Shown here in pieces: positions 24,991 through 57,034 of a stretch of 64,000 nucleotides of DNA (position 1 is the first letter of the stretch; each line of letters opens with the position of its first letter). The notes under the pieces are model-generated. The model saw nothing but the letters and a program-made list of their open reading frames with translations. It was not told where the DNA came from and searched no databases. Source of the DNA: Clostridia bacterium. Lineage in GTDB: Bacteria > Bacillota > Peptococcia > DRI-13 > UBA5745. The position numbers and the translations under genes were made by a program. The stretch is from positions 1 through 64,000 of the forward strand of contig JAHDMJ010000009.1 of the NCBI GenBank assembly GCA_018436095.1, written 5' to 3'.

Positions 24991-25098
24991 GTCGATGCGT
25001 TACAAAAAGAAGGGGAGATATGATATTCTGTATTGAAAGAGCATGGAACAAAAAGCAGAAGATGATCATCTTGAATATAGAATAGCAGGAGGGCAGAT

Positions 25099-25593
25099 AT
25101 GGCTTTAAATGATGAGGAATTAGCCTTGGTTGGTCAATTGCTGGAAAAAAAGCAGATGTATTATCGCCTGGCCTATTCCCTTACAGGAAATGAAGCCGAC
25201 GCTTTGGATGCAATTGCCCAAACAACGCTGCAGGTAGTTGAAAAAATTCATACTTTACGCTCAAAGGAAGCGTTTTTGTCCTGGAGCAAGCGGATATTGG
25301 TTAATGTCTGCCGGGAATTTTGGCGTAAAAACCCGAAGACGCTGCCCATTGAGGAAGCCTTAGCGGCAGAAGGCGGCTGCGGTCTGGCCATCGAAGAAGA
25401 ATTAATGCTGCGCCAATACATCTGTCAATTGCCGGAGATTCACCGGGAAGTCATTCACCTGCGCTTTTATCTCGACTATGAATATAAGGAAATTGCCAGA
25501 ATACTGGAGATTCCGGAAGGGACGGTAAAGTCCCGGTTGAGCCGGGCTTTGGAGACGCTAAAGCAACAAATGGGAGGCGCTTTGCATGAATAG
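25099..25593 (+). CDS. ECF-type RNA polymerase sigma factor
   Basis: A 164-residue sigma-70-family factor of the extracytoplasmic type. Region 2 spans about 15-80 (YYRLAYSLTGNEADALD ... KEAFLSWSKRILVNVCREFWR). Region 4 spans about 105-160 (LPEIHREVIHLRFYLDYEYKEIARIL, then GTVKSRLSRALETLKQQM, a helix-turn-helix). Such factors are held by a membrane anti-sigma protein until an envelope signal arrives. The next gene overlaps by 8 bases and encodes a membrane-anchored macroglobulin, not an ordinary anti-sigma protein. AGGAGGG precedes ATG 25099. Confidence 0.92.
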   Translation: MALNDEELALVGQLLEKKQMYYRLAYSLTGNEADALDAIAQTTLQVVEKIHTLRSKEAFLSWSKRILVNVCREFWRKNPKTLPIEEALAAEGGCGLAIEEELMLRQYICQLPEIHREVIHLRFYLDYEYKEIARILEIPEGTVKSRLSRALETLKQQMGGALHE

Positions 25594-28500
25594 AATCGAT
25601 AATTTCATGGCAGCCGAAAAAGAACGGCTGGAAAAAATCGCAGCTCCCGCCCTTTACGATCAGGTAGTGGAAGAAGCGCTGCTGGCGGCGGGGCTCTCTG
25701 CAGAAGAGATCAAAAAGGCCCTGGCTGCCAAAGAAGAGGAGCCTGCCGCCCAGCCCCTGTTTAGAGGCGGAAAGGAAGCTAAGGAACAGAGGCCGGAGTT
25801 TAAGCTGCCTGCCGTAAAGAAAAAACAGCGGCTTTGGCTAGGGGCTGTGGCTGCTTGCGCTGTCTTACTGTTGGGGATGAGTTCTTTTTTGCCTCTGGCC
25901 CGGGAGGTTTCTCTGCCCAAAGAGCTGCCCCAAAGCTTTAAAGGCGTGATTTCGATTACGCCTACGCTGGCAGACGGCAGCCTGGTCAATCCCGCCGGCA
26001 GCTTTCTCATCACATCCACGGAGGCCCTGCCTAAGGAGCTGGTAGAAAAAGCTCTTATTGTGGAGCCCGCCTTCGATTATGAGCTGTCAGGCAAAAAAGG
26101 CGGCAAAGAATACGAATTAATCCCTGTGGAGCCTTTGGAAGAAAACAGCGTTTACCGGATTGCTTTTGATCCGGAAAACAGCCTGGCGGACCTGGGGGCC
26201 AGAGGTTCTTATACCTGGGCTTTTCAGACCCAGGCCTCCTTCCGGCTGACAGGGACCCTGCCCCGCTCCAATACATCGATGGTGCCGGTCAGCACTACTT
26301 TGGAGCTGTATTTTACGGCGCCGCCGGATAAAGCGGCAATAGAAAAAGAAGTGACCTTTACGCCGGAAATACCGGGAACCTGGCAAATTGAGCAAAATAA
26401 GGCCCTTTACTTGCCCTCGGCTCCTTTAGCTTATAAGACCATTTATGAGGTGGATATTCCCCAGGGACTGCAGCCGGCAGGGGGCGGCAGCAAAACTCCG
26501 GAAGGCCTGAAGGTGGTTTTTCAGACGGAAGGGCCGGAGAATCATCCTGAGGAAAATTCCTATTTTGGCCTCCAGGGACAAAATCTCTCCTTCCGTACAG
26601 GGGAGGAGCCTTACGTCCAATTTTATTACAACGACTGGGCTGCCGCCGAAAAGGACCCGGCTCCCCAGGTTAAGGCAGACGTCTATGCTTATAGCGGCAG
26701 CGATCAATACCAGGCTGCCCTTATCGAAAAAATGCAAACCCGGGACTGGCTGTCTTTTGACCGGGAAAACATGGTTGTCACCGAGGGCTTAAATCTTCTT
26801 TCCAGCTTCAATCTGACGGGACAGCAGATTGATTATTCCTGGTATCTGTATTTTCCTGAAAGTCTGCCCACCGGTTTTTATTTGGCGGAGCTTTCCCTGG
26901 AGGGCCAGACCTGCCAGCTGCTGTTTCAGGTAACGGATCTCAGCGTTTACTTGTCCGCCAATGAGGAGGAGGCTCTGCTTTGGATCAACGATTTGGCTAC
27001 GGGGCAAGCAGCCGCCGGCGCCCAGGTAAGGACCGGCAATGAGACAAAAAAAATCATTGCCGACAGCCAGGGCCTGGCTTATATAGAAAGCCTGCCTCCT
27101 GAAGACGGAGTCCGGATTTATGATATCCGCAGCCAGGAAAAACAGGTTTTGCTGGCGGATAAAGATTGGGGCTTCGGTTATCCGCAACGCCAAAAATGGC
27201 AGGAAGAAAGGAAGATCCAGAAAGCTTACTGGAATTACCTTTATGTAGACCGGCCCCTTTACCGGCCCGGGGATACCCTGTATTTCTTCGGCCTTATCGC
27301 TCCCCGGGATGAAAAGGCTGACGAAGTAAAAGAGGTAACGCTGCGGCTGGAAACTTATCTGGCGGATAAAACCATCAAGCAGACCTGCAGCGTCAGCGGC
27401 GACGTCCTGCAAGGCAGTTTCTCTTTGCCTGTATTGCCGCCGGGATATTATAGCCTCAGCATGTATTTGGAGGATGCCTATATTTGCGGCAGTACTTTCC
27501 AGGTGGCTATTTACGAAAAGCCGGCCTATCAGTTGACCCTTGCCGCCGACAAGAAAGCGGTGATGAAGGGCGATACGGTGCAGTGGACGGCCGCCACCAG
27601 CTTTTTTGACGGTACGCCTTTAGCGGAGCAAGCTATCTCCTTTTCCGGTACGGCCATTGAGTCGGGCCGGACCATCACTTCGGATTTCAACGGACGCATT
27701 CAATTTACGACGAAGGCTGACGGCGGCAATATTTACGGCTTGCTGGGCAATGATTACGTTTCGGCCATGGCCCGGCTGCCGGAGATAGGAGAAATCTACA
27801 GAGACAGCTATGTTACCGTATTCACCAGCGATCTGGAAATTACGGGCCGGGTACAAAGGACTGCATCGGAGACCGGTGAGTTTACCATCGATCTTAAAGC
27901 TTTTGATGTGGACTTAAGCCGCATTACCGATTGGGAAGGGGATTTGCAGGATCAGGCTTTGGCGCCTTACGGCGGCGGCCTGGTCATGGAGGCTGCCTTA
28001 ATACGCCAGTATTGGCATAAGATAGAGGCGGGCCAGAAATATAACCCCTATAGCAAGCAAATGGAGCCTGTGTATGATTATCGTCTGGAAGAAATTCCGG
28101 AAGATACATTGCATTGGACCTACGATGGTTCCGGAGAGCAGACTTTCCGCGGCCAATTGGCTTATGACGATGGCTACCAGCTGGCGATTTCCTTTAAGGA
28201 CCGTTCGGGCCGGGAGGTCAAACGCCTGTTCTATTTGCCGCCGGCTCAAACGCTTTCCCAGGAGACTAACCCTTATATTTATCACTGGCTTTGGATCCAA
28301 AAGGATGATGGCAAAGCACACTGTCTTTTGGGGGAAGAGGCTACTTTCAAGTTGTATGAAGACCAGGTTCCCTTGCAGGGGGAAGGCCGGTACCTCTTTT
28401 TCAAAGCCCGGGAAAAAATCAAGGATTATCTGGTAAGTTCAGAAAATGCCTATAGCTTCCGTTTCAGTAACGAAGATATTCCCGGCGCCAATATAATGGC

Positions 28501-30757
28501 CGTGTATTTTGACGGCCGCAAGTATTTGCCGGCGGCTTATTCGGCTCAAGCTACCATGGACCCGGCTGAAAGAGGCCTTAATGTCGAAATCAAAACCGAT
28601 AAGGAACAATACCGGCCCGGCGAGACGGTGGTCATGGATTTGAAACTCACCGATGCCGCCAACCGGCCGGTGGAGGGGGTTATCAGCCTTAATCTCATTG
28701 ATGAAGCTCTGCTTTCCGTTCAGGAGCAATGGGTCAACATGGGCTGGCAGGTGTTTTTAGGGAATCTGTATGATTTCAACTACAAGACGACTCTGAGCCA
28801 TCCCGACGGCAGCGGCGGCAATATGGCTGAGGGGGGCGAAGGAGATGGCTACCGGGAAGAATTCAGGGACACCGTGATTTTCCGTACGCTTTATACGGAC
28901 AAAAACGGCCTGATTCGCACAGAGTTTACCCTGCCCGATAATATCACCACCTGGCGGGTGGTTTGGCAGGCCTATAAGCCGGATATTTGGGCCGGCAGCG
29001 GTTCGGCTGCTATCCCCGTCAGCTTGCCCTTTTTTACGGATATCCGTTTTAACGGTCCTATTCTGGATCAGGACGAACCCATACTCGGCTTGCGTTCGGC
29101 AGGCACCCTTATCAGCCAGGAGAGTTCTTTGCCGGTAGAGTGGACGGTCAACATCCCCGAGACGGGATTCAGCCGGACACTGTCGGGCCCGGCTTTTAGC
29201 TGGCAGGAGCTGTCTTTGCCGGCCATGGCGGCAGGGGATTATACGCTGCAGGTCCACAGCAAATATGATAATCACAGCGACAGCGTTACCCAGCTTTTCC
29301 ATGTGGTTAAAAGCCGGCAAAGCTATACTGCCCGCGAAGAGGTGGTTTTGGAAAACAATTACCTGCCTCTGGGGGATGAGGAGGGCATGACGACGGTGGT
29401 TTTCAGCGACCGGGCCAGAAACCAGGCTTTGCAGGGCCTGCACCTGCTGGCGGATCAGGCCTCCGTAAGGGTAGAACAGCGGCTGGCAGCTCTGGAAGCC
29501 AGAGCATTGCTGAAAAAGCATTTCCAGATTGATTGGTGGAATACCACCGAGTCAGCCGTCAAAGAGGAACAGGAGCAAATTCTGCGCTATCAAAACCCGG
29601 ACGGCGGTATTGCCTTTTTGCCCTACGGCCAATCGGATATTTACACCAGCATTTGGGCGGCTGCCGCCGGCGGCCGGTATTTTTCCCGGGATGCTTTGGC
29701 TATGTATTTTATGGACTTATTGGAGAATGGAGCGGACACGGGCATCGATCCAACCATGGCCTTGTGGGGAGCGGCAGCCAGCGGCCAGCCGGTGCTGTCC
29801 CAGATCCGTCAGGCTTTACAGGAAAACCGTTATCAAGGGCAGGAGCTTACCGGCAAACAACAGTTGAATTTGGTCTGCGCCTTGATTTTTGCGGGCAGCG
29901 GCAATGAAGCCCTCGGTTATGCTCAAAACTTAGTGGCTGTCTGGGCCGAGGATTTGGGCGGCGGTCTTTACCGGGCTGCCGTCAGCGACGACAGAACGGC
30001 AATCCTGGAGGCCACAGCCCAGATGGCGGTGGTGGCGGCAGTTCTTGATCTGCCGGAAAGCGCCGGGCTTTACCGCTACCTATTGGAAAACCCCAGTGAA
30101 AAAGAGTATTTTCTGTTGGAGCAATTGATTTACTTACGCGCAGCCTGCGAGAAGATCGGCGATACCGCCAGCTTTACTTATACGTTGGACGGGGAAGAAA
30201 CCACGGTGGATTTAACGAAAACCCTCAGCTATACCTTATTATTGACACGGTCACAGCGGCAGTCCATCAGCATCGGCCAGGTCAGCGGTTCCATCATTGC
30301 CGAATCCCAATACCAAAAACCGGGCTATCCTGAACCCGCCCCTAACGCCGCCGAATATCTGCAAATCAGCCGCAGCTACCGGGTCAGCAATCAGGAAAAA
30401 TGGAGCCTGCCCATGAACGGCAAGATTCAAGTCGTCATTGATTACCGCATTGACGCCTCGGCCCCCGACGGCAGCTACAATATTGTTGATTATTTGCCTA
30501 CAGGTTTACGTTACGTCACTTTGGACTTGCAGCAAAAACCAGAGGGGTCTTATCCCAATGTCTGGCTCTTGAAGGAAGAGGGTAACCGGCTGACCTTCGG
30601 GCTATATAAGGGCCAGGAGGCTCTGGAAGGCAGGCTGCAATACTCGGTGCGGGTGGCTATGCCCGGCAGCTATCTGGCGGAACCGGCTACGCTGGTCCAT
30701 TCCCGCCTGGCCAATCAAATGGCGGTCACCGCCGCCGGCAGAGTTTATATTCATTAG
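25586..30757 (+). CDS. Membrane-anchored alpha-2-macroglobulin-like protein in anti-sigma position
   Basis: Very large protein of 1723 residues. Residues 1-80 are a charged, helical, probably cytosolic segment. One transmembrane helix follows at about 82-103 (LWLGAVAACAVLLLGM), and the rest lies outside the cell. An Ig-like entry domain is at about 115-225. Macroglobulin domains include RPLYRPGDTLYFFG near 555 and QYRPGETVVMDLKLTDA near 1007. The A2M core is near 1103 (GLIRTEFTLPDNITTWRVVWQA), followed by a helical thioester-domain-like region near 1320-1515 with QNPDGGIAFLPYG. The thioester motif C-x-E-Q is absent. Family members trap or sense proteases. There is no lipobox and no pbpC neighbour. 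Its 8-nt overlap with the sigma gene suggests the N-terminal segment is the sigma-binding part. Confidence 0.85.
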   Translation: MNRIDNFMAAEKERLEKIAAPALYDQVVEEALLAAGLSAEEIKKALAAKEEEPAAQPLFRGGKEAKEQRPEFKLPAVKKKQRLWLGAVAACAVLLLGMSSFLPLAREVSLPKELPQSFKGVISITPTLADGSLVNPAGSFLITSTEALPKELVEKALIVEPAFDYELSGKKGGKEYELIPVEPLEENSVYRIAFDPENSLADLGARGSYTWAFQTQASFRLTGTLPRSNTSMVPVSTTLELYFTAPPDKAAIEKEVTFTPEIPGTWQIEQNKALYLPSAPLAYKTIYEVDIPQGLQPAGGGSKTPEGLKVVFQTEGPENHPEENSYFGLQGQNLSFRTGEEPYVQFYYNDWAAAEKDPAPQVKADVYAYSGSDQYQAALIEKMQTRDWLSFDRENMVVTEGLNLLSSFNLTGQQIDYSWYLYFPESLPTGFYLAELSLEGQTCQLLFQVTDLSVYLSANEEEALLWINDLATGQAAAGAQVRTGNETKKIIADSQGLAYIESLPPEDGVRIYDIRSQEKQVLLADKDWGFGYPQRQKWQEERKIQKAYWNYLYVDRPLYRPGDTLYFFGLIAPRDEKADEVKEVTLRLETYLADKTIKQTCSVSGDVLQGSFSLPVLPPGYYSLSMYLEDAYICGSTFQVAIYEKPAYQLTLAADKKAVMKGDTVQWTAATSFFDGTPLAEQAISFSGTAIESGRTITSDFNGRIQFTTKADGGNIYGLLGNDYVSAMARLPEIGEIYRDSYVTVFTSDLEITGRVQRTASETGEFTIDLKAFDVDLSRITDWEGDLQDQALAPYGGGLVMEAALIRQYWHKIEAGQKYNPYSKQMEPVYDYRLEEIPEDTLHWTYDGSGEQTFRGQLAYDDGYQLAISFKDRSGREVKRLFYLPPAQTLSQETNPYIYHWLWIQKDDGKAHCLLGEEATFKLYEDQVPLQGEGRYLFFKAREKIKDYLVSSENAYSFRFSNEDIPGANIMAVYFDGRKYLPAAYSAQATMDPAERGLNVEIKTDKEQYRPGETVVMDLKLTDAANRPVEGVISLNLIDEALLSVQEQWVNMGWQVFLGNLYDFNYKTTLSHPDGSGGNMAEGGEGDGYREEFRDTVIFRTLYTDKNGLIRTEFTLPDNITTWRVVWQAYKPDIWAGSGSAAIPVSLPFFTDIRFNGPILDQDEPILGLRSAGTLISQESSLPVEWTVNIPETGFSRTLSGPAFSWQELSLPAMAAGDYTLQVHSKYDNHSDSVTQLFHVVKSRQSYTAREEVVLENNYLPLGDEEGMTTVVFSDRARNQALQGLHLLADQASVRVEQRLAALEARALLKKHFQIDWWNTTESAVKEEQEQILRYQNPDGGIAFLPYGQSDIYTSIWAAAAGGRYFSRDALAMYFMDLLENGADTGIDPTMALWGAAASGQPVLSQIRQALQENRYQGQELTGKQQLNLVCALIFAGSGNEALGYAQNLVAVWAEDLGGGLYRAAVSDDRTAILEATAQMAVVAAVLDLPESAGLYRYLLENPSEKEYFLLEQLIYLRAACEKIGDTASFTYTLDGEETTVDLTKTLSYTLLLTRSQRQSISIGQVSGSIIAESQYQKPGYPEPAPNAAEYLQISRSYRVSNQEKWSLPMNGKIQVVIDYRIDASAPDGSYNIVDYLPTGLRYVTLDLQQKPEGSYPNVWLLKEEGNRLTFGLYKGQEALEGRLQYSVRVAMPGSYLAEPATLVHSRLANQMAVTAAGRVYIH

Positions 30758-30786: not shown

Positions 30787-31893
30787 ATGACGAACAGGAT
30801 AGGGAATAAATTGAAGGGCCGGCGGGCGCTGCCGGTCCTGATCCTGCTTTTGGCCGTTTTGCTCCTCTTGGTTCGCTTGACCGCCTTGGCCCAAGCAGGC
30901 CATAGCGGCACCGGGGCAGGAGACAACGGCAATGGCGTCAATAGCGGCGGTGACGGTGCTGGCGGCTTTAGCGAGGGCGGCAGCGGCGCCGGGGGTGCCA
31001 GAAGCGATACGGCAGACAGTACAGACCCTGGCGCCGCTCTTGCTGCTCCTGCCGGCAATCAGCCTCCTGCCGAGATCATCGATACCGGCCAGCACCTTAA
31101 CCGCCGTCAAATGGAGGAGGCCCTGGCTATGGCGAAGGAAGAACGCTGGGCCATTCATTTAAAAGACGGGGCGGAGGGGGGGCGTATCCGCTGCCTGACC
31201 CTGCCCCACCATTTGCCGGCGGCCGGATTAACCATCCATGCCTTGGAAGAGTTGGCCGGCCGGCGGCAAAAACCCGGCGTTATCATTCTGATGGGGCCAA
31301 ATCATCAAAATATCGGTCCTGCCGCCGCTGTGACCTCCGCCGTCTGGCAGACGGCCTATGGCAGGGTAGAGCCTCAAAAAGAAATTATTGCCGCCCTGCT
31401 CCGGGAGGGCTTGGCGGCAGAAGCCTTGGAATGCTTTCCCCAAGAGCACAGCTTAGGTATGGTTATTCCCTGGCTGGCCAAATTTTTGCCGGACACGCCG
31501 GTTGTGCCGCTGCTTTTTCATTATCAATACCCAATGAAGGATCTGGAAAAGCTCCTTGGGGTATTGGAGCCTTGGCTGGAAGAGGATGGACTGCTCTTGG
31601 TTTCCGTGGATTTTTCCCATCACCAAGAGGCTGATGAGGCAGCCAGGCATGATGAGAAAACTGCCCAGCTCCTCGAAAAAGGTGATTGGCGCACCCTGGC
31701 CGGCTTAAGCAGCGATTATCTGGACAGTCCTACCCTGGTGGCCGCTATGGTCCGCTATAGCCTTGACCGGAAGCTGACCGGGCCGGCGGTCTTGGCCCAT
31801 ACCAATACCGGGCGGCTGACGGGGATAGCCGGCCAGGAGGTTACCAGTTATTTTGTATTAGCCTATACGGAAAAGGAGGCGGAGGAGCAGTGA
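30787..31893 (+). CDS. MEMO-family (AmmeMemoRadiSam B) protein with N-terminal membrane anchor
   Basis: A 368-residue protein of the MEMO1 / AmmeMemoRadiSam system protein B family. The N-terminal hydrophobic helix (about 14-35) and a long Gly/Ser/Asp-rich linker (about 36-95) precede the MEMO domain. Within it are LTLPHHLPAAGLTIHALEEL, MGPNHQNIG, PQEHSLGMVIPWL and VSVDFSHHQEA, the conserved His-rich positions that can bind metal. Bacterial homologues are usually cytosolic and sit beside AMMECR1 and radical-SAM genes. Here neither is present and the domain appears to be outside the cell. It starts 29 bases after the macroglobulin gene, with a weak ribosome binding site, and overlaps the next gene by four bases. 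Confidence 0.85.
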   Translation: MTNRIGNKLKGRRALPVLILLLAVLLLLVRLTALAQAGHSGTGAGDNGNGVNSGGDGAGGFSEGGSGAGGARSDTADSTDPGAALAAPAGNQPPAEIIDTGQHLNRRQMEEALAMAKEERWAIHLKDGAEGGRIRCLTLPHHLPAAGLTIHALEELAGRRQKPGVIILMGPNHQNIGPAAAVTSAVWQTAYGRVEPQKEIIAALLREGLAAEALECFPQEHSLGMVIPWLAKFLPDTPVVPLLFHYQYPMKDLEKLLGVLEPWLEEDGLLLVSVDFSHHQEADEAARHDEKTAQLLEKGDWRTLAGLSSDYLDSPTLVAAMVRYSLDRKLTGPAVLAHTNTGRLTGIAGQEVTSYFVLAYTEKEAEEQ

Positions 31894-32771: not shown

Positions 32772-33962
32772 ATGCCCGGCGAAGCAGTCATCAGGGGTGT
32801 GTTTTTTTTCATGGCTTACGCCTTTCTGGGATGGATGATAGAGTGTTGTTATGTGCGGGTATTGGATGGGGAATGGGTCAACCGCGGTTTTTTGCACGGT
32901 CCTTTTCTTCCGGTTTACGGTTTCGGCGGCATTATCATTATTTATATCCTGCAAGGAGTCAGCGGCAATCCTGTCTTGCTCTTTACCGCTTCTTTTTTCT
33001 TGCTTTCGCTGCTGGAATACACAGCGGGATGGATGCTGGAGAGAGCCTTTAAGATTAAATGGTGGGATTATTCCCAGTACAAATTCAATCTGTCCGGCCG
33101 GGTGTGCCTGCTGAATTCCCTTTATTGGGGAGTCCTGGGCGTAGTAGTAATGAAGCTTGTCCATCCCGGATTGGCCAAGCTGGCAAGTCTTTTTTCTTCC
33201 CAGCGGCAGCTAATGATCATAAGCCTATTTCTGTTTTATTTCTTTTTGGATTTGGCTGCCTCCTTGCGGCGGGCCGCCGATTTCGGCAAGGTGATTCAAG
33301 AGTTGGAAGCTTATGCTGAAAAGCTGGAGCGGGAAATCGGAGAAAGACAAAGGAAATACGAAGAAAAAATTCAGGAATACGAGAGAAACAAGCAGCTTTA
33401 CCGGGAAAAATGGCGCCGGGGCATCGATGAGGCTAAGGCCCAGCTTTTGCATAATTTGACGGCCCAGGGAGAGAGCCTCCAGAAAAAAATCGAACAGGCT
33501 AATGAGGACTTACGGGTTGCCTTAAGGCTTTTAAAAGGAGAATTAGCGGCGGCAGCCAACCAAAAGGAAAGAGCGGTCAAGCTTTCCTATAGCCGCTTTT
33601 ACCGGGATATCCGCCAGCTTCTAGAAGGAAAACGGGAGTCTTCCCAACATCGCAGCATGAGAAATCTTCTGCGTATCTTTCCCACTCTTTCTCCTGCCGC
33701 CGGACGGTTTCCGGCCAGGGAGCTGTGGCTGGAAATCAAAAATATAATCAAGAAAGAATATTACAGTATTTCCCAGGAAATAAATGGAGGAGGTGAAGAA
33801 ATGAAAAAGTATGTTTGTACAGCATGCGGGTATGTCTATGATCCGGAGGTAGGTGATGCCGACAGCGGTATTGCTCCCGGCACGGCTTTTGAAGACATTC
33901 CTGAGGATTGGGTTTGCCCTCTCTGCGGCGTCGGCAAAGATATGTTTGAAGTCCAGGAGTAA
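32772..33962 (+). CDS. Membrane protein (putative ABC-transporter type IV domain) with coiled coil, in frame with rubredoxin
   Basis: The open frame encodes 396 residues. Residues 1-165 hold about five membrane helices with the features of the PF06541 family ([46 protein letters not shown]). This is a Bacillota membrane family of unknown function, annotated as putative ABC-transporter type IV. A charged coiled coil spans about 175-270. No stop codon separates this from rubredoxin, which forms residues 344-396 (from Met344). The ribosome binding site of rubredoxin is translated as GGGEE. Either a true fusion is made, or a stop was lost: a TAA sits one frame away at 33781-33783. Confidence 0.72.
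33801..33962 (+). CDS. Rubredoxin (internal start within the longer frame)
   Basis: Small electron carrier of 53 residues with one Fe bound by four cysteines: [10 protein letters not shown] near the start and CPLCGVGKD near the end, with the usual [20 protein letters not shown] between. An excellent ribosome binding site (GGAGGAGGTGAAGAA) ends directly at ATG 33801, which is why I believe rubredoxin is made as a separate protein. The codons also continue in frame from the upstream membrane-protein gene. Likely partners are oxygen- or peroxide-reducing enzymes; none are adjacent. Confidence 0.9.
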
Positions 33963-55746: not shown

Positions 55747-56310
55747 TTGCTGTTATTTCTGACCTTCGTTGAAAAGGAAGAAGATAAACAAATACTCGAG
55801 AAAATATATTACCAATACAGAGAGCCTTTATTTTATGTTGCTAAGAATATTCTAAAAGACCACCATTTGGCAGAAGATGCTTTGCAGAACATGTTTATTA
55901 AATTAGCCCGATATTTAAAAAAGGGCAATCTGCCTACTCAAGATAAAATAGGCTCTTTTTTAGCAGTGATGATCAAACATACCGCTATTGATCTTCACCG
56001 CCAGCAATGGCGGCAGAGGGAAACCCTGGAGATAAGTGAAGAGGTTTTTCCCCAATCCGCCCACTCAGTCTTGCCGGGACCGGAGGAGATATTGCTGAAC
56101 CAGGAAGCTTACCGGCAAGTAGCGGCCTTCATCAGAACCCTATCTCCTGATCACCAAAAGGTTCTTTTCTTGCGTTATTTTTGTGAAAGGACGGAGCAGG
56201 AGATCGCTGATTTATTAGAAATTAAAAGGGAATTGGTGAATTCGCGGCTTTTTAAGGCCAGAAATAAATTAAAAGAAATATTGGCCAAGGAGGGGGAAAA
56301 GAATGAATGA
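55747..56310 (+). CDS. RNA polymerase sigma factor, ECF-like
   Basis: A 187-residue sigma-70-family protein. Region 2 spans about 15-85 (ILEKIYYQYREPLFYVAKNILKDHHLAEDALQ ... FLAVMIKHTAIDLHR). Region 4 spans about 120-180 (LSPDHQKVLFLRYFCERTEQEIADLL, KRELVNSRLFKARNKLKEIL). TTG 55747 is the start, with GGAGGGAGG upstream. Its end overlaps the anti-sigma gene by 8 bases, exactly as in the sigma-macroglobulin pair at 25.6 kb. Confidence 0.9.
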   Translation: MLLFLTFVEKEEDKQILEKIYYQYREPLFYVAKNILKDHHLAEDALQNMFIKLARYLKKGNLPTQDKIGSFLAVMIKHTAIDLHRQQWRQRETLEISEEVFPQSAHSVLPGPEEILLNQEAYRQVAAFIRTLSPDHQKVLFLRYFCERTEQEIADLLEIKRELVNSRLFKARNKLKEILAKEGEKNE

Positions 56311-57034
56311 ATCATTGTTTGATGAAACATTGGATATTATGTTGAAAAAAGCCCTCTGCGAAGAAAGCCTCCTGTTCGAAAAAGAATTAGAGGAAGCCCA
56401 GGTTTTGGCGGCTCAGCAGCCGGTAAAGTTTTCTCTTGAACATGAAGGGAAAATGCGGACTTTCTTTAAAAAAGAATCGATGCGCAATAAGAAACTTTAT
56501 CAGCGGCGCTGGATCCAATTAGCCGCTGCCTGCATTCTCATCTTCCTTTGCTTAGTTGCAGCAAGCCCTCCGGTCAATGCCGCCCGAAACCCGATTGTCC
56601 GGTTTTTTGCAGTAATTCGGGAAAAGAGTATTAGCATCCTGACGCCAGATCAAGGAGAAGCGGGCAATCTCGAAGGAGTCGAGAATCCGGCAGAAAACCT
56701 ACAGGTGCAAGCTCGTTTAGGCTATGTACCGGAAGGTTACCTGCTTCAGGATGTTCAGGACTTAAACGGGATGTATTGGATGATTTACGAAAAAGCAGAT
56801 GGTTCATCGATTACTTTGGGCCAGTTTCCAGAGCAGGCCGCCATGGAGATGGATGGAGAGGACAGCGAGATCAAAGAAATATATCTGGGAGAAAACTCGT
56901 ATCTTTTGTCCCATAAAGAGAATCAATATATTGTCGCTTGGATTTTTCAAGATTATAAGTTTAATTTGATTCTTGCAGGGGATAGCGATGAAGAAGAAAT
57001 CAAAGAAATTTTAAAAAATATCATTTATTTTTGA
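56303..57034 (+). CDS. Anti-sigma factor-like membrane protein with DUF4367-type domain
   Basis: A 243-residue single-pass protein. A cytosolic helical part (1-68) contains a basic patch before one membrane helix (about 70-92, WIQLAAACILIFLCLVAAS). The extracellular part (about 130-243) looks like DUF4367 (LGYVPEGYLLQDVQDLNGMYWMIYE, later ILAGDSDEEEIKEILKNI). This family is commonly encoded after ECF sigma factors and regulates them. The 8-bp overlap with the sigma gene ensures coupled synthesis. Confidence 0.85.
   Translation: MNESLFDETLDIMLKKALCEESLLFEKELEEAQVLAAQQPVKFSLEHEGKMRTFFKKESMRNKKLYQRRWIQLAAACILIFLCLVAASPPVNAARNPIVRFFAVIREKSISILTPDQGEAGNLEGVENPAENLQVQARLGYVPEGYLLQDVQDLNGMYWMIYEKADGSSITLGQFPEQAAMEMDGEDSEIKEIYLGENSYLLSHKENQYIVAWIFQDYKFNLILAGDSDEEEIKEILKNIIYF

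Follow-up and report, generated by a model that had tools for sequence, protein, structure and literature searches.

The window, a 64,000-nucleotide stretch of a Clostridia bacterium contig (JAHDMJ010000009.1), contains a gene for an extracytoplasmic function (ECF) sigma factor that is directly followed by a gene for a membrane-anchored alpha-2-macroglobulin (A2M)-like protein. Judging from comparative sequence analysis, this A2M very probably serves as the transmembrane anti-sigma factor for the product of the preceding gene. Autoregulation of the operon by the window sigma factor is highly likely in its own right, and that both statements hold together is still likely. Homology, co-occurrence, selection, repeated coupling, and the promoter lend strong support to the core of an original prediction made for this locus, namely that an anti-sigma segment is fused to an A2M and paired with the sigma factor.

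Organization of the gene pair

The gene pair and its parts, all on the forward strand, are as follows:

25045..25071, +, ECF-type promoter GGAAC-N17-CATCT, conserved across type A loci (see below)
25087-25093, +, ribosome-binding site aggaggg of the sigma gene
25099..25593, +, ECF sigma gene, type A, 164 amino acids (Pfam; clade adjoining sigma factors paired with DUF4179 anti-sigma factors)
25586..30757, +, putative membrane-anchored A2M-like anti-sigma factor, 1723 amino acids (Pfam; PDB profile match to YfhM)
25586..25726, +, predicted anti-sigma segment, residues 1-47 (homology to RsiV/DUF4179-type N termini; omega 0.03)
25727..25825, +, variable linker, residues 48-80 (omega 0.42)
25829..25894, +, membrane helix, residues 82-103 (hydropathy)
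25895..30754, +, A2M ectodomain, residues 104-1723 (Pfam; family alignment)
28826..28870, +, invariant AExGGEGxGxR stretch, residues 1081-1095 (invariant alignment columns; putative role)
29465..29479, +, thioester-motif remnant VRVEQ, residues 1294-1298, Arg for Cys
30787..31893, +, Memo-like exported protein (Pfam Memo, 3.5e-18), kept downstream of the A2M in most loci

In the product of the first gene, Pfam models of sigma regions 2 and 4 scored over cut-off (Sigma70_r2, 5.5e-11; Sigma70_r4_2, 1.7e-16) and region 3 was absent, which is the composition of an ECF sigma factor. The sigma and A2M reading frames overlap by 8 nucleotides (25586-25593). The same overlap had been noted for a second pair in the window, and it is indeed present between the genes for an ECF sigma factor and a DUF4367 protein at 55747-56310 and 56303-57034.

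The larger protein has the MG, BRD, and A2M domain order of a bacterial alpha-2-macroglobulin. MG2 (1.5e-12), Big_5 (1.1e-11), and A2M_BRD (1.4e-8) exceeded the Pfam cut-off, and bMG3 and A2M/PF00207 fell just below it. A profile of the A2M family matched Escherichia coli and Salmonella A2M structures, including YfhM, in a PDB profile comparison (best E 8.2e-13). The predicted N-terminal layout was confirmed by hydropathy, with 82 residues preceding the only N-terminal membrane helix, which starts at about residue 83. The accompanying statement that there is no lipobox has to be amended, as VAAC at residues 88-91 literally fits the lipobox pattern; since it lies inside the membrane helix, more than 80 residues from the N terminus, and is missing in several orthologues, the conclusion that the protein is not a lipoprotein stands. 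There is no CxEQ thioester motif, as had been stated, and the aligned position reads VRVEQ. The missing thioester had also been taken as a sign of a sensor, a use that was not borne out: nearly all A2M family members, sigma-linked or sigma-free, have GxRx(E/D)Q, with Arg for the thioester Cys. The family as a whole has thus lost covalent trapping, which is no sign of sensing.

Recurrence and independent origins of the pairing

Relatives of the A2M were searched for in the order, class, and phylum, and a large orthologous family was obtained; a scan of genome contigs returned one close relative. An ECF sigma gene, decayed to a remnant in two cases, lies directly upstream of 22 related A2M genes, 21 of which belong to two types. 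Type A loci were found in the window's family, f1 (seven genomes), and in family f34 (seven genomes), and type B loci in f5 (one genome) and f8 (four genomes), while two f2 genomes (G009 and G016) still have a type B sigma remnant, consisting of region 4 only, in place. A third, very divergent ECF gene precedes an A2M whose cytosolic segment has 35 residues, in a single f122 genome (G306, L126:3395-8908). The sigma-A2M order, with a small overlap or gap, is thus seen in f1, f5, f8, f34, and f122. Other family members have no sigma gene beside the A2M, an adjacent ECF gene was found in 0 of 19 A2Ms examined from another subfamily, and no A2M relatives were found in viral contigs.

The f2 remnants, at L039:11040-11400 and L052:5300-5990, belong to two genomes of one genus, and the A2M following them retains its N-terminal segment. 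A programmed frameshift was considered for these sigma genes and rejected, region 2 being missing in all three frames. When the segment was looked for without an intact sigma gene beside it, these two genomes were the only ones returned. A conventional anti-sigma partner was looked for as well; close orthologues of the window sigma factor (at least 58% identity) were found only beside A2M and never next to a conventional anti-sigma gene, and close orthologues of the type B sigma factor also occur only beside A2M.

For the nearest conventional relatives of the window sigma factor (L144-L147, ca. 41% identity), the next gene in each case codes for a DUF4179-type transmembrane protein, and the anti-sigma protein of L148 combines DUF4179 and DUF3298, the architecture of RsiV. 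Type A sigma factors form one clade adjoining L144-L147, and type B sigma factors lie elsewhere in the ECF tree. Trees in which types A and B were held together were rejected by the approximately unbiased (AU) test both for the sigma factors (p-AU 9.3e-6) and for the A2M ectodomains (p-AU 2.1e-5). Type A A2Ms form a single clade across f1 and f34. A single clade of type B A2Ms was not rejected (p 0.17), and type B may represent a single gain with losses. We conclude from these trees that unrelated ECF modules joined the same A2M family independently, at least twice. The f122 locus is probably a third independent coupling, its placement being unsure because of long branches.

The syntenic slot is the same with and without the sigma gene: asd or aspartokinase genes precede the A2M in several sigma-free genomes (f3, f4, f6, f7), and the order in f8 is asd, sigma gene, A2M. 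A Memo-like gene is found downstream of both sigma-linked and sigma-free A2Ms; in the window it probably belongs to the same operon. In most loci, this gene, directly 3' of the A2M, codes for a Memo/AmmeMemoRadiSam-B-like exported protein with a transmembrane or lipoprotein anchor. Several f34 genomes have a second, shorter, sigma-free A2M paralogue of 1090-1371 amino acids (L127-L131), and three of those aligned no longer read GxRxEQ at the thioester position. Further downstream in the window, at 32772-33962, a putative ABC_trans_CmpB membrane domain is joined via a coiled-coil-like stretch to a rubredoxin domain. Defence-system models had no match.

The N-terminal segment and the promoter

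The 21 loci of types A and B encode 55-149 residues before the membrane helix, compared with 4-46 in 33 sigma-free homologues, whose segments were counted from the longest possible start codon (rank test p 4e-10, which ignores kinship). The f34 paralogues and conserved neighbourhoods served as controls.

A Pfam scan of the N-terminal 110 residues of the A2M revealed no anti-sigma family, and neither DUF4179 nor DUF3298 was found by Pfam in the window A2M. The protein does have the short N-terminal segment and single transmembrane helix of RsiV/DUF4179-type anti-sigma factors. Because the DUF4179 model begins downstream of this segment in standalone proteins, a hidden Markov model was built solely from ten N termini of standalone RsiV/DUF4179-type anti-sigma factors. 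Of the 14 type A segments, seven scored better with this model than any of 627 decoys (best E 1.4e-4; rank test p 1.8e-10). In a profile-profile comparison (hhalign), the type A segment matched the standalone N termini with P 1.8e-7 and a probability of 94% over 41 columns. Common to both sets are a charged helix, then a proline preceded by (E/A)(A/I/V), a second helix, a basic stretch, and the membrane. Homology of the type B segment to RsiV-type, ZAS-type, or neighbouring anti-sigma N termini was tried and rejected, since the comparisons were not convincing.

The segment is under selection. Between the window protein and its relative at L031, identity is 98% in residues 1-47, 44% in the linker, and 82% in the ectodomain, with omega values of 0.03, 0.42, and 0.11, respectively; a second pair gave 0.05, 0.48, and 0.17 in the same order. 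In a third, more distant pair, the linker was saturated and the segment less constrained (omega 0.32), so the strength of constraint on the segment varies.

An ECF-type promoter upstream of the sigma gene is indicated by sequence conservation. GGAAC is located at -51 to -63 (about 55 nucleotides) before the sigma gene in 13 of 13 readable type A loci, and a -10 part, (C/T)ATC, follows it after 17 nucleotides in ten of them. GGAAC is common to all eight non-redundant type A loci; in 3000 shuffles, no 5-mer was shared by more than six of the eight. We therefore consider that the promoter at 25045..25071 is probably recognized by the window sigma factor itself. In three type B loci, the upstream motif is GTAAC-N16-CGTT. 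The strict motif occurs four times in the window's genome, and a search with strict and relaxed motifs in that genome revealed no excess over a reversed-motif control. Since the only intergenic strict occurrence is the sigma-A2M promoter itself, these results suggest that the circuit mainly controls its own operon and has few or no other targets.

Proposed mechanism, alternatives, and significance

Among the closest known systems is SigV-RsiV of Bacillus subtilis and Clostridioides difficile, a lysozyme-sensing ECF sigma/anti-sigma pair in which RsiV is cut first by signal peptidase and then by RasP (PMC6066255). The window pair resembles it in its related sigma clade, its homologous short N-terminal segment with a predicted sigma-binding role, its single transmembrane helix and presumed extracellular sensor, and in being an overlapping gene pair, autoregulated as far as the sequence of the window pair indicates. 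In contrast to RsiV, the window protein has a 1600-residue A2M ectodomain without DUF4179 or DUF3298, and is therefore described as RsiV-like in its working and not as RsiV. No signal-peptidase-like AxA site is evident after its membrane helix, whereas most type B and sigma-free members have one, which in the latter may mark a cleaved signal peptide. RsgI of the Clostridium thermocellum SigI systems is likewise a transmembrane anti-sigma factor with a large exchangeable ectodomain and RseP-like proteolytic release, but SigI and RsgI_N are other families, and the ectodomains described there are carbohydrate-binding or enzymatic, with no A2M among them (PMC12203970). YfhM/ECAM and SaA2M share a homologous ectodomain and cytoplasmic-membrane anchoring with the window protein. 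They are, however, lipoproteins that carry a CLEQ thioester and lack a cytosolic domain (PMC4498604), while the window A2M has Arg in place of Cys and is anchored by a transmembrane helix with a cytosolic segment.

On the basis of homology, co-occurrence, and selection, cytosolic residues 1-47 would hold the sigma factor at the membrane, with the 1600-residue A2M ectodomain in the position normally occupied by a sensor domain. If this ectodomain were altered, most likely by proteolytic cleavage or ligand binding, the anchor would become accessible to stepwise proteolysis; a conformational change upon cleavage would resemble that of E. coli A2M (PMC4498604). By analogy with RsiV, a site-1 cut followed by an RseP-like intramembrane cut would then free the sigma factor; an RseP-like M50 protease and signal peptidase I are encoded in the genome, as in most bacteria. 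The freed sigma factor would transcribe the sigma-A2M genes, probably together with the Memo-like gene, from the GGAAC-N17-CATCT promoter. The main output would be more A2M surface protein, a self-replenishing sentinel or shield, and in the most economical form of the loop, damage to or engagement of A2M would boost A2M synthesis. That the trigger is cleavage or conformational change of the ectodomain has somewhat less than an even chance of being correct.

Several observations weigh against this scheme. For the segments of type B and f122, homology to known anti-sigma domains could not be demonstrated, and the f2 genomes keep the segment despite a decayed sigma gene. The regulon was deduced from motif searches, which could miss weak promoters. 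Finally, the stretch immediately preceding the PF00207 domain, in which one would expect a variable bait region, contains the invariant AExGGEGxGxR, and this argues against a general protease bait; if the stretch is the equivalent of the bait region, it lacks the variability that the bait of a general trap would have.

A less likely but serious alternative is feedback without a specific trigger, in which the A2M is primarily a surface inhibitor or scaffold and the intact anchored protein titrates the sigma factor, matching synthesis to demand. A regulon apparently confined to its own operon fits this well, as do sigma-free relatives that evidently work without signalling and a Memo operon partner common to both kinds of loci, but by itself it leaves unexplained why a large and not a small ectodomain bears the segment. 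This alternative overlaps with the triggered scheme, the trigger being the sole difference between them. It is improbable that the sigma factor is instead held by an unlinked anti-sigma factor and that the A2M segment has another use, such as membrane recruitment or targeting of the sigma factor. Further anti-sigma genes do exist in these genomes, and retention of the segment in f2 after sigma decay would be accommodated; the segment is, however, homologous to anti-sigma N termini, is lost or absent in all sigma-free homologues, and the sigma factor has no other conserved partner. An accidental gene order of functionally unlinked genes, conceivable in that either family is common by itself, can be dismissed for practical purposes, being already contradicted by conservation: recurrence over several families, two independent couplings, selection on the segment, and conserved promoters.

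Pairs of an ECF sigma factor and a transmembrane anti-sigma factor with an exotic ectodomain are already known; the new element is A2M as the ectodomain. No description of an A2M bearing an anti-sigma domain was found in titles and abstracts of openly licensed literature on A2M with ECF or anti-sigma factors. Animal macroglobulins are protease traps. Bacterial macroglobulins have been suggested to act likewise, a role hard to reconcile with thioester-free members. We tentatively propose that the thioester-free A2M is a signal receptor and not a trap, that attack or binding is read through the membrane with replacement of the A2M as nearly the sole output, and that this device was built at least twice from unrelated sigma modules. 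With the anti-sigma domain for its own sigma factor built in, an A2M would provide a transcriptional readout of ectodomain sensing, through which the function of thioester-free A2Ms becomes testable, and would extend the range of ectodomains known from ECF anti-sigma factors by one of very large size. The family also offers a natural series in which a sigma/anti-sigma module on one orthologous protein can be followed from its gain through retention to decay. If the A2M holds the sigma factor in check as proposed, an extracellular event could induce synthesis of this same surface protein.
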